Assembly (NCBI RefSeq): GCF_900106015.1
Contig: NZ_LT629797.1
Span: forward strand, 4,092,001 to 4,156,000
Reading direction: 5' to 3'
Origin: Pseudomonas sihuiensis
GTDB taxonomy: Bacteria; Pseudomonadota; Gammaproteobacteria; Pseudomonadales; Pseudomonadaceae
Length of the DNA stretch: 64,000 nucleotides
The notes below the pieces were generated by a model. It did not search any database and was not told the origin of the DNA. It worked only from the letters and a program-made list of their open reading frames with translations. Of the stretch, positions 29,632 through 36,789 are shown in pieces. The stretch's first letter is position 1. Each line of letters opens with the position of its first letter. The translations under genes and the position numbers were made by a program.

Positions 29632-30030
29632 TTGACCAACCACAGCGTACCAACACTTGGCGATCTCGAAATCGCCGTGCTCGAAGACATCTGGCGCTTC
29701 GGCCCGTCCGACACCAAGGCGGTGTACGCGCGCATTGGGAAGTCTCGCTCGATTTCCTTGAACACAGTGCAATCCACGCTGGAACGTCTGTTTCGCAAGG
29801 CCATGCTCCAGCGCGAAAAGATCAGCCATGCCTACGAATACTCGGCACGAGTATCTCGCCGGGAACTGATCCAGAAGCTGGTCGAGTCCACGGTGCGTCG
29901 TGTCGCAGGCCCGCAGCCGGATGCGTTGTTGAGTGCCTTTGTCGATCTTGCTGCAAGGGCGGATGATGACCAGCTCAAGAGGCTGGAGGAGTTGATTGCC
30001 CGTCGTCGCGCTGAATTGGATCAGCCGTAA
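29632..30030 (+). CDS. BlaI/MecI/CopY-family repressor
   Basis: A 132-residue protein with an N-terminal winged helix: PTLGDLEIAVLEDIWRFGPSDTKAVYARIGKSRSISLNTVQSTLERLFRKAMLQREK (about 7-63), and a helical dimerisation tail. In the family, repression ends when a partner membrane protease triggers its cleavage or when metal binds (CopY). The start is TTG at 29632, with GGAG 11 nt upstream; no ATG fits in frame. It overlaps the protease gene by TAATG. Confidence 0.9.
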   Translation: MTNHSVPTLGDLEIAVLEDIWRFGPSDTKAVYARIGKSRSISLNTVQSTLERLFRKAMLQREKISHAYEYSARVSRRELIQKLVESTVRRVAGPQPDALLSAFVDLAARADDDQLKRLEELIARRRAELDQP

Positions 30031-31025
30031 TGATGAGTTATGGCCCACTACTTCAGTTCGCATTGCTATCCGGCTTCGTGCTGGCAGTAACGCTTACCCT
30101 GCTGATTGGAACCTGCGAGCGCCCATTACGCCGTGCGCTGTCAGGAAAGAGCCCCTATCAGCGAGCAAGAGTGTCTTGGTGGATGCTGGTAACACCCGCA
30201 TTGGCGGGTATTGCCTATACGGCCATGACTATCGCCATGCCGTCGATGTTTGATGATTCGGCCAGATTTGCCGCTGCCTGCTCTGCGCACGCTGACACGC
30301 TCCTGCACCTGTGCGTTTGGCACCCGAGCGGCAATGGGCAAAGTGCCTGGCTATGGGGAGCATTGGCATTGTTGGCGGGATACGCGGTTTGGCTGGCATT
30401 ACGGGCCGTAGTGGGCCTTTGGCGTGCTCGTCGAACCCTTGCCTCGATGGTGCGCCTGAGCTGGCGTCCGGGGTATCCAGACAAACTTCGCGTGCTTGAT
30501 GTCGATCAGCCTATGGCGCTGGCCTGTGGCGTCGGGAATGGCCACATCCTGCTTTCAACCTCGTTGATGCGGCGACTCGACCCAACGCAATTGCGCGTGG
30601 TGCTGGCGCACGAACAGGCTCATATCGCCAATCGAGATGTGCTGCATCGCCTGATCGCTGTCGTGTTGTCGAGCATCCAGTTGCCGGGCACTCGTCGCCG
30701 GCTGTTGCGCGATCTGGAACTCGCCTTGGAACAGCGTTGTGATTTCGCTGCTGCAAACGAAGTGGGATGCCCTGTCGCCGTAGCCGAAACCATCGTTGCA
30801 GTAGAAAAGATATTTCGGCAACACGCCAAGGAACAGATGCCGTTGGCTATGGCGTTCTTTTCCGATTTCGTCCCTGAGCGTGTCGAGGCGTTGCTGTCGT
30901 CCAAGCACACGTCTGTCTCATACCTGGGGCCGATGCTAGGCATTCTTGTTCTGGCGTTTTGCAGCCTATCTACCGGCTGGCTGCATTCCGTGACCGAATC
31001 TCTCATCACTGTGATGACGAGGTAA
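30030..31025 (+). CDS. M56 membrane metallopeptidase (BlaR1-like, no beta-lactam sensor)
   Basis: A 331-residue protein with predicted spans near 8-28, 50-70, 105-130 and 302-322. The zinc-protease site HEQAH is at 194-198, with E234-x-x-x-D238 as the likely third-ligand motif. The positive-inside rule puts HEQAH in the cytoplasm and residues 71-104 outside. That outer loop holds C84, H87, H93, C95 and H98. BlaR1 and MecR1 have a ~250-residue penicillin-binding sensor after the last span; this protein stops right after it. It is therefore likely to sense something else, with metal the obvious candidate given the operon. Confidence 0.88.
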   Translation: MMSYGPLLQFALLSGFVLAVTLTLLIGTCERPLRRALSGKSPYQRARVSWWMLVTPALAGIAYTAMTIAMPSMFDDSARFAAACSAHADTLLHLCVWHPSGNGQSAWLWGALALLAGYAVWLALRAVVGLWRARRTLASMVRLSWRPGYPDKLRVLDVDQPMALACGVGNGHILLSTSLMRRLDPTQLRVVLAHEQAHIANRDVLHRLIAVVLSSIQLPGTRRRLLRDLELALEQRCDFAAANEVGCPVAVAETIVAVEKIFRQHAKEQMPLAMAFFSDFVPERVEALLSSKHTSVSYLGPMLGILVLAFCSLSTGWLHSVTESLITVMTR

Positions 31026-31061
31026 GTCCATATGCGCGCGTGCTGTGTTTTTTTGCCTGAA

Positions 31062-31082
31062 AAACCGATTGATGATCGGTTT
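31062..31082 (+). promoter_or_regulatory. Second operator, upstream of the efflux operon
   Basis: AAACCGAT-N5-ATCGGTTT, differing from the repeat at 29562 in three central positions. TTGATG (31069-31074), inside the repeat, takes the place of the -35 box of the first site, but the -10 is unclear. It lies 83 bp ahead of the outer-membrane gene. Confidence 0.72.
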
Positions 31083-33638: not shown

Positions 33639-33648
33639 GGACGCGGAC

Positions 33649-36600
33649 ATGCTCGAACGTATCATTCGCGCGTCCATCGCGCATCGCTGGCTCGTGCTTC
33701 TATTGGTGCTCGCCCTGTCCGGGCTGGGCGTCTGGAACTACAGCCGCTTGCCGATCGACGCGATACCGGACATTACCAACGTCCAGGTACAGATCAATAC
33801 CGAGGCACCAGGCTACTCGCCAATGGAGGCGGAGCAGCGCGTCACTTTCCCGGTTGAGACGGCGCTCGCTGGCCTCGCCCGGCTGGACTACACCCGCTCG
33901 ATTTCCCGCTACGGCCTGTCGCAAGTCACTGCGGTCTTTGAGGACGGCACCGACATTTACTTTGCCCGCCAGCAGGTTGCCGAACGCTTGCAGCAGGCAT
34001 CTTCGCAACTTCCGGCGGGCCTGAATCCTTCTCTCGGCCCGGTGGCAACCGGCCTGGGCGAGATATTCATGTACACCTTGGAACCCGAGAAGGGCTACGA
34101 GGAAATCTGGACGCCGACGGCGCTGCGCACATTGCAAGACTGGTCGGTGCGTCCGCAGCTCCGCAATCTGAAAGGCGTCACCGAGGTCAACACCATCGGC
34201 GGTTACGTGCGTCAGTTCCACATCACACCCGATCCGGTCAAGCTGCTGGCCTACGAGTTGACGATGAACGACGTGCTGAACGCCGTTGCGCGGAACAACG
34301 CCAACGTCGGTGCCGGCTACATCGAACGTCACGGCGAGCAGTACCTGATCCGCATCCCCGGACAGGTAGGCGACATCGAGCGACTGCGGAAAATTGTCGT
34401 GGCAACGCGCGATGGGCTGCCACTCCGAATATCCGACGTGGCGGAAGTTCTGGAGGGTAGCGAACTACGAACCGGCGCGGCCACGAAAGACGGCAAGGAG
34501 GTCGTGCTGGGAACGGCATTCATGCTGATTGGCGAGAACAGCCGAGCGGTTGCACAGCGCACGGTGGAAAAGCTCGCTGAAATCGACGCGACACTTCCCG
34601 AGGGAGTCCGAGCACACGCGGTTTATGACCGCACTCAACTCGTTGACCGCACCATCGCAACCGTGCAGAAGAATCTTCTGGAAGGCGCGTTGCTGGTGAT
34701 TGCCGTGCTGTTCATGTTGCTAGGCAACCTGCGTGCAGCCCTGATAACCGCAGCGGTCATTCCGCTTGCCATGCTGCTGACGATCACCGGCATGGTGCAA
34801 AACCGAATCTCGGCCAACCTGATGAGCTTGGGCGCACTGGATTTCGGCCTGATTGTCGATGGTGCGGTCATCATCGTGGAGAACTGCTTGCGCAGGTTCA
34901 GCGAACGACAGCACCAGCTCGGTCGGCTGTTGACCCGCGATGAGCGTTTCTCGCTGGTTTCGAGCGCCAGTGCAGAGGTCATCAAGCCTGCCCTGTTCGG
35001 ATTATTCATCATCACGGCGGTTTACCTTCCAATCTTCGCGTTGTCGGGTGTGGAAGGAAAGATGTTCCATCCGATGGCGCTTACCGTCGTGATCGCATTG
35101 ACTGGTGCGATGGTGTTGTCCCTGACTTTCGTGCCCGCTGCGGTCGCGCTGTTTGTCACCGGCAAGGTTTCCGAGAAGGAAACCAAGGTGATGCGCGGCA
35201 TCAGCCGCTTCTATGCGCCACTTCTCCAGAAGGCAATCAGGCTAAGGGTCGCCGTTGTCGCGGCGGCGTCAGTGTTGGTAGTGCTGTCTGGTTTGCTTGC
35301 GACGCGCCTGGGCACCGAGTTCATCCCCAATCTGGATGAAGGCGACATCGCCTTGCACGCGATGCGGATTCCCGGAACGAGTCTGACCCAGGCGATTGGC
35401 ATGCAGCGCCAGTTGGAAGCGCGGATCAAGGAGTTTCCAGAGGTTGAGGAAGTCGTTGCCAAGATCGGTACTGCCGAGGTTGCGACTGATCCCATGCCTC
35501 CTTCGGTGGCTGACACCTTCATCATGCTCAAGGATCGCAGCGAATGGCCTGATCCGCGCAAACCGAGAGCCGTACTGCTTGCCGAACTGGAAAAGGCGGT
35601 GAACACCATTCCCGGCAACAACTACGAGTTCACTCAGCCCGTGCAGATGCGCATGAATGAGTTGATCGCGGGTGTCCGTGCCGAGGTGGCGATCAAGGTG
35701 TATGGCGATGACATGGAGCAACTGGCCCAACTAGGCTCCAAGATTGAAGCCGTGGCCGAGAGTATCGAGGGATCTGCCGACGTGGCACTCGAACAGATTA
35801 CGGGCCTGCCGCTGATGACAATCACGCCGAACGTGGATGCACTGTCCCGGTACGGCCTGGCGATCGACGACATACAGCAGACGGTGGCAATCGCTCTTGG
35901 TGGTGCCGTCGCTGGCCAAGTGTTTGAGGGCGATCGCCGCTTCGATATTGTGGTTCGGCTGCCCGAAGCGCAGCGCCAAGACCCTAAAGCACTGGCGACA
36001 CTGCCCATTCCCGTTCCGACCGGCGCTGCTGCCGCACCGGGCCAAGCCGCTTACGTGCCGCTCGGCCAGCTTGCGTCAATCGAAGTGGCTCCCGGCCCCA
36101 ATCAGATCAGCCGCGAGAACGGTAAACGCCGGATCGTCATTACCAGCAATGTGCGCGGACGCGATCTAGGGTCGTTCGTGGAAGAGCTGCGTGAGCGCGT
36201 AAGCCGCGAAATCACACTGCCAGAGGGCTATTGGGTCAACTACGGGGGCACGTTCGAGCAACTCATTTCGGCGAGCCAACGGCTGTCCGTCGTCGTGCCG
36301 GCTGTACTGGTTCTGATCTTCGGCCTTCTGTTCATGGCCTTCGGCTCGGGCCGGGACGCCACGGTCGTCTTTAGCGGCGTACCATTGGCACTGACAGGCG
36401 GCATTGCCGCATTGTGGCTGCGCGATATTCCGCTTTCGATTTCGGCAGGGGTCGGCTTCATTGCCCTATCCGGTGTGGCAGTGCTCAACGGCCTGGTGAT
36501 GGTGAGCTTCATTCGCAAGCTGCACCACGATGGCGCGCCGATTCAGGATGCCATTGTGAATGGCGCGATGACGCGGCTACGCCCGGTGCTGATGACTGCG

Positions 36601-36789
36601 CTGGTTGCAAGCCTCGGTTTCGTACCGATGGCCATCAACGTTGGAACGGGCGCGGAAGTGCAACGACCCCTCGCAACTGTCGTCATCGGCGGCATTGTCT
36701 CTTCGACGCTGCTGACGTTGCTGGTACTGCCGGCCCTGTATCGCCTCATTCATCGGCGTACCGACCGCCAGAACACCGCGCCAGCGTAA
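33649..36789 (+). CDS. czcA: CzcA-type HME-RND efflux pump
   Basis: A 1046-residue proton-driven pump with 12 spans and two large periplasmic loops. The heavy-metal signature in span 4 is DFG-x3-DGA-x3-VEN (D398, D404, E411), the HME1 form linked to Zn, Co and Cd rather than Cu/Ag. Other family stretches are [21 protein letters not shown] near 35 and [21 protein letters not shown] near 556. Full length with no disruption. Exact metal range is inferred. Confidence 0.94.

Follow-up and report, generated by a model that had tools for sequence, protein, structure and literature searches.

Why should a repressor gene of the type known from the staphylococcal beta-lactam switch stand in front of a heavy-metal pump? 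The question is raised by a stretch of 64,000 nucleotides of the Pseudomonas sihuiensis genome (contig NZ_LT629797.1, positions 4,092,001 to 4,156,000; hereafter the window, numbered from its first letter), in which a blaI-type repressor gene and the gene of a BlaR1-like membrane protease of family M56 are followed by czcCBA, coding for an outer-membrane factor, a periplasmic adaptor and a heavy-metal-efflux pump of the resistance-nodulation-division class (HME-RND). An earlier note on this DNA had proposed that metal bound by a periplasmic loop of the protease leads to destruction of the repressor and release of pump expression. That interpretation is supported by the co-occurrence of the genes, by the conservation of the loop and, most strongly, by a palindrome common to repressor and pump that the note does not mention, and we consider a metal-responsive, BlaR1-like proteolytic repressor switch for czcCBA to be probable.

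A palindrome common to repressor and pump

The 21-bp palindrome AAACCGA-N7-TCGGTTT occurs once upstream of blaI (operator 1) and once upstream of czcC (operator 2), compared to none expected from 100 shuffles. The exact palindrome is found nowhere else in the 5,476,267-base genome; one mismatch adds no place (0), and two mismatches give 11 places, the same number as a reversed control pattern (11). The presence of one palindrome upstream of both blaI and czcC ties the repressor to the pump, and the proposed control of the pump by the blaI-M56 pair is, at the level of sequence, well supported. The gene calls and Pfam bear out the overlap of blaI with the M56 gene (the blaI stop shares one base with the M56 ATG) and the gene order described in the earlier note; its statement that the pair lies directly before czcCBA needs correction, in that a 127-bp gap between the M56 gene and czcC carries the second operator.

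Operator 1 is exact in 14/14 close relatives, and operator 2 is exact in 11 of the 14 and has one mismatch in the other three, with a variable spacer. In the copy on a P. aeruginosa plasmid, one site is exact and the other has a single mismatch. In a set of sites picked by exact arms, the information content of the arms is given by construction, and we therefore relied on an unpicked count, in which the best site per locus was taken in the 280 nucleotides before blaI and in the 250 nucleotides after the M56 stop, for family and control loci alike. The 36 family loci consist of the 14 close relatives and of 9/16 and 13/17 rows of two further sets, excluding the window's own row; eight long M56 rows were moved from the family sets to the controls, and G714 was left out. 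The 47 control M56 loci, 40 taken at about every third row of the match list and seven others (L045, L046, L060-L064), were not sampled at random and include several that are related to each other.

Before blaI, 30 of the 35 family loci have a site with at most two mismatches (exact in 25) and none of the 47 controls does, their best site having four; after the M56 stop such a site is found at 22 of the 35 family loci (exact in 17) and again at none of the 47 controls. (Each family count is out of 35, as L053 leaves its contig upstream and L059 downstream; the upstream score of 6 for L043 is due to an M56 start called early, and a one-mismatch site lies at -304.) Without the 14 close relatives, the site before blaI is still found at 16 of 21 loci. 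The complete control loci (696,627 bases) contain no site with zero or one mismatch and three with two.

An inverted repeat followed by T, in a block that is cargo of a conjugative element, might also be read as an intrinsic terminator, or as sequence that simply travels with the mobile element, with BlaI and M56 unrelated to the pump. We find this explanation scarcely credible: the arms hold one sequence in distant relatives, with no covariation (one paired change, in L041), the palindrome is missing from the output of the terminator scan, and the layout recurs phylum-wide in genomes of other families. Moreover, in the 19 genomes that hold 22 distant loci, 17 of the 21 places with an exact site are at BlaI-M56 loci, and the control pattern occurs at one place. 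As a terminator, the palindrome was rejected.

Some observations on the operators weigh against the proposed switch. Without the close relatives, the site after the M56 gene is found at only 8 of 21 loci; the operator before blaI is missing or weak in L050, L051, L054 and L055; and in six loci (L036, L038, L043, L044, L049, L052) operator 2 lies within the TolC-like gene as called by its longest frame, so that coding constraint may account for some of its conservation there.

A candidate sigma-70 promoter has its -35 element within operator 1. The hexamer pair alone is no better than chance (1 found vs a shuffle mean of 0.6); a -10-like hexamer (3-5 of 6 positions, best of five spacings) lies 16-17 bp downstream in 19/19 relatives that have TTGAC in the operator. 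The promoter scan found no promoter-like site at operator 2. One exact operator away from blaI, the third in its genome (L106:3428), lies between cation-diffusion-transporter-like and TonB-receptor-like genes (our own reading, made without a family search); the other three off-locus exact operators among the 19 genomes have no evident metal gene nearby.

The gene neighbourhood in relatives and controls

The association that the earlier note had suggested looking for, that of a short M56 protein with BlaI and an HME-RND pump, is found in distant bacteria. An HME-RND gene is present in the fetched stretch of 25 of the 36 family loci (12/22 without the close relatives) vs 0/47 controls, and a HupE-like gene in 20/36 vs 0/47. 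A BlaI-like frame occurs in 36/36 family and 43/47 control stretches. Both operators are kept in L011, L012 and L015, with a different RND class downstream (792-798 bits to the window CzcA, compared to 1973-2226 bits for the RND proteins found in the remaining close relatives); the pump class varies under the same switch. A 78-residue CzcC remnant is kept in L011.

Eleven family loci have no HME-RND gene in the stretch, and four of them (L040, L047, L053, L059) are on short contigs. In another four (L041, L042, L056, L058) a TonB-dependent receptor gene, called by similarity to that of L041, is divergent from blaI-M56; if metal uptake is what the pair controls there, the switch would have to work in reverse. 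A TonB receptor is also found near one control (L068). In L009 (11074-12218) czcC is reduced to about 100 codons and czcBA is gone, and both operators and HupE are kept. L054 and L055 contain no pump in the stretch; there, the protease gene is followed by genes for small, His-rich proteins that look secreted.

The membrane protease and its loop

The window M56 protein scores 29.1 bits with PF05569, just under the cut-off of 31 that membership requires, and 41 bits with PF01435; it is the sole PF05569 match found genome-wide, and some family members (e.g., G112, G096, G216) pass the cut-off. It has the transmembrane-protease fold of BlaR1. In an alignment of the window protein with 57 of 120 listed homologues (145 found; full-length, family-like rows chosen by hand, leaving out fragments, near copies and HtpX-like rows), the HExxH motif with its downstream ExxxD is intact: H194, E195, H198 and E234 occupy 58/58 rows, and D238 is likewise invariant. 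The HEQAH motif and the loop residues named in the earlier note are present in the translation and in the alignment, with C84, H87 and C95 in 58/58 rows, H93 in 57 and H98 in 56. These Cys and His residues persist in homologues of as little as about 25% identity, and H319 and E323 near the C-terminus are again found in 58/58 rows. We take the loop (residues 84-98) to be periplasmic, by the topology of BlaR1.

The AlphaFold2 model (mean predicted local distance difference test score, pLDDT, 83.8) contains long helices at 5-37, 42-73, 106-143 and 299-313, which are consistent with the four membrane spans claimed earlier. The protein was also said to end after its last span, without a penicillin-binding sensor. 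The sensor is indeed absent (the protein ends at residue 331, and NF033108 gives 14.4 bits vs a cut-off of 1200), and the window M56 is therefore not a BlaR1 by membership; the last span is followed in the model by a further helix (315-330), which carries H319 and E323. The distance from HExxH to the end is 128-147 residues across the 36 family loci.

In a tree, 34 distinct family proteins fall on one side of a branch with support of 97/88, recovered in 96% of 200 bootstrap trees. A 40-residue loop segment contains 4-9 Cys and His residues in the family loci and 0-2 in 46/47 controls (4 in L092), the segment being set at a fixed offset from HExxH, such that the true loop may be missed in controls. 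An identical (100%) M56 protein occurs in P. monteilii. A tblastn search of plasmids found 13 records, with a single full-length match, in P. aeruginosa, and otherwise short, partial ones, mostly named M48/HtpX; a profile search of solved sequences matched only HtpX.

Other features of the loop weigh against the proposed switch. Residues 71-110 are modelled at low confidence (block mean pLDDT 62-71), the Cys pair is gone from the His-only loops of L043, L044 and L059, and the loops of L041, L042, L056 and L058 are rearranged (EHCH/HHCH), with no RND gene nearby. L043 and L044, His-rich in the loop, adjoin czcCBA and HupE.

The pair might control the pump through the operators in response to a trigger other than loop-bound metal, such as envelope damage, a redox change of the two Cys residues, or metal taken up by the catalytic site itself. 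These two conserved residues could form a disulfide, and some relatives adjoin a TonB receptor instead of a pump. We nevertheless regard such a trigger as unlikely, as the His residues are as strongly conserved as the Cys residues, and the three lineages without the Cys pair have gained His in its place; L043 and L044 still adjoin HME-RND genes, and L059 is cut by the contig end.

The repressor

The repressor belongs to the Penicillinase_R superfamily (PF03965, 76.5 bits vs a cut-off of 22.6) and is the only such match found in the genome. A CopY-like mode, in which the repressor itself would bind metal and leave the DNA with the protease as a bystander, draws on the best NCBIfam match of the protein, CopY_TcrY (TIGR02698). 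The score of 42.9 bits is far under the cut-off of 121.95. CopY repressors carry a Cys metal motif, and the lack of any cysteine among the 132 residues of the window BlaI counts against direct sensing of this kind, as does the conservation of the protease active site and loop (counted as invariant in 58/58 rows, with 57 for H93 and 56 for H98). We therefore disfavour direct sensing as very improbable, although cysteine is present in some relatives' repressors.

Residues A102-F103 align with N101-F102 of Staphylococcus aureus BlaI, the known cleavage site of that protein. The Phe at position 103 is retained in 33 of 34 readable relatives, a count that leaves out L049 (wrong automatic BlaI frame) and L043 (frame missing). 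The exception, L057, weighs against the proposed switch, and the count covers family repressors.

The pump and the candidate metal

CzcA is a CusA/CzcA-type HME-RND protein (TIGR00914, 1559 bits vs a cut-off of 701) that scores best with ZneA (666.5 bits, vs 642 for CusA). CusA has a DAA motif and a methionine triad; CzcA contains DGA for DAA and H/V/E at the three Met positions, and so lacks these marks of the Cu/Ag pumps of the CusA type. For this pump the inducing metal is most likely one of the divalent ions Zn, Co, Cd and Ni, as CzcA carries the divalent-type motif; the assignment is tentative, in that other HME-RND classes or a TonB receptor lie beside the same pair in relatives.

Proposed mode of action

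Without excess metal, a cysteine-free BlaI dimer would occupy both operator copies, of which operator 1 would cover the -35 element of the blaI-M56 promoter and operator 2 would front czcCBA. Periplasmic metal may then bind the M56 loop through C84, H87, H93, C95 and H98, perhaps together with H319 and E323 of the C-terminal helix, and the bound metal would activate the cytoplasmic HEQAH protease. Activated M56 would cut BlaI, plausibly near A102-F103, and the switch and pump genes would be expressed until efflux reduces the signal.

More broadly, and with somewhat less assurance, we favour the view that these proteins form a distinct, widespread M56 branch whose signal is metal rather than beta-lactam, sensed by a small Cys/His loop in the periplasm that the C-terminal helix closes. 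The branch would relay this signal across the membrane by destruction of BlaI and would have a 21-bp operator of its own. It would constitute a portable module, placed before several metal-pump classes and beside a TonB receptor, and spread in part by conjugative elements. If so, proteolysis of a repressor would join the known routes from periplasmic metal to induction of RND exporters, namely two-component systems and extracytoplasmic function (ECF) sigma/anti-sigma pairs, and the BlaR1 protease would be a signalling scaffold of general use, on which the sensor can be exchanged. The small size of the window M56 protein would bring the activation of such proteases within reach of study. The operator provides a DNA signature for locating the system and predicting its regulon.

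The mobile element and neighbouring genes

The features of the locus are collected in Table 1. The HupE/UreJ_2 gene is likely to belong to the same cargo block as blaI-M56-czcCBA. Two small proteins without a Pfam match (210 and 89 residues, window 37660-38682) accompany HupE in close relatives, and a gene for a LysR-type regulator (38740-39711), which could also act on the blaI-M56-czc genes, closes the block. No Rfam match at the gathering threshold was found in 29000-40000, and 29520-39720 has no near match in the Escherichia coli collection.

A DUF3363 relaxase gene (27164-29521) lies just upstream. A P. aeruginosa plasmid record matches window segments 14000-29500 (94.6%), 29500-36800 (94.0%) and 39500-52860 (93.6%), and its annotation includes a replication initiator, ParB, a relaxase, the same gene block, TraG and Trb genes. 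We read the host element as a Tn4371-like conjugative element, in line with PMC2789088, in which czc pumps are predicted on Tn4371-like integrative and conjugative elements (ICEs), that of P. aeruginosa PA14 included.

Table 1. Positions of the features of the locus within the window
Feature	Position	Strand	Description or basis
Operator 1, palindrome AAACCGATTGACGGTCGGTTT	29562..29582	.	Upstream of blaI; shuffles, genome scan, relatives vs controls
Candidate sigma-70 promoter TTGACG-17-GATACT, -35 within operator 1	29569..29597	+	Promoter scan
blaI-type repressor gene	29632..30030	+	132 amino acids, TTG start, PF03965 76.5 bits
M56 (BlaR1-like) membrane zinc protease gene	30030..31025	+	331 amino acids, without penicillin-binding sensor
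M56 loop codons 84-98 (C84, H87, H93, C95, H98)	30279..30323	+	Alignment
HEQAH active-site motif, codons 194-198	30609..30623	+	Alignment
Codons 319-323, H319 and E323 in post-span helix	30984..30998	+	Alignment and AlphaFold2
Operator 2, AAACCGATTGATGATCGGTTT	31062..31082	.	Upstream of czcC; genome scan, close relatives
TolC/CzcC-like outer-membrane factor gene czcC	31153..32412	+	PF02321
czcB-like periplasmic adaptor gene	32409..33638	+	PF16576, PF13437
czcA-like HME-RND pump gene, divalent-type motif	33649..36789	+	TIGR00914 1559 bits
HupE/UreJ_2 gene	36891..37637	+	PF13795

Comparison with known systems

Our searches of an open-access library found no description of a BlaI/M56 metal switch. 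PMC7242495, on P. aeruginosa CzcCBA, makes no mention of BlaI, M56, Tn4371 or ICE. The czc cargo described in PMC2789088 likewise consists of predicted pumps on an element of this type; "M56", "metallopeptidase" and "penicillinase" have no occurrence in that paper, and the czc regulator is not described under those words. A genome paper on a metal-resistant Cupriavidus (PMC7239810) lists blaI and blaR as beta-lactam genes. If our proposal holds, blaI/blaR1 labels in metal-resistant bacteria need not mean beta-lactams.

CzcRS, CnrYXH and similar systems read periplasmic metal across the membrane and induce an HME-RND pump. Unlike these, the window system consists of other proteins and would act by repressor proteolysis rather than by phosphorelay or anti-sigma release. 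Like the CopY/TcrY copper repressors (TIGR02698), the window BlaI is a member of the same repressor superfamily with metal export as its target; unlike them, it scores under the family cut-off, has no cysteine and is paired with a protease.

The staphylococcal operator is of the TACA/TGTA type, and the operator of the window system differs from that of staphylococcal BlaI/MecI. Like BlaR1, the window M56 combines the same transmembrane and protease fold with an intact HExxH and ExxxD; unlike BlaR1/MecR1, it has a Cys/His loop in place of the penicillin-binding sensor, and an RND metal pump as target. As in BlaI-BlaR1 and MecI-MecR1, the staphylococcal beta-lactam switch reviewed in PMC7593790, the repressor gene adjoins that of an M56 membrane protease and its product is of the same repressor family. 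By analogy with that account, the mode of action is most likely that of BlaI-BlaR1, with metal at a short loop replacing beta-lactam at a sensor domain.

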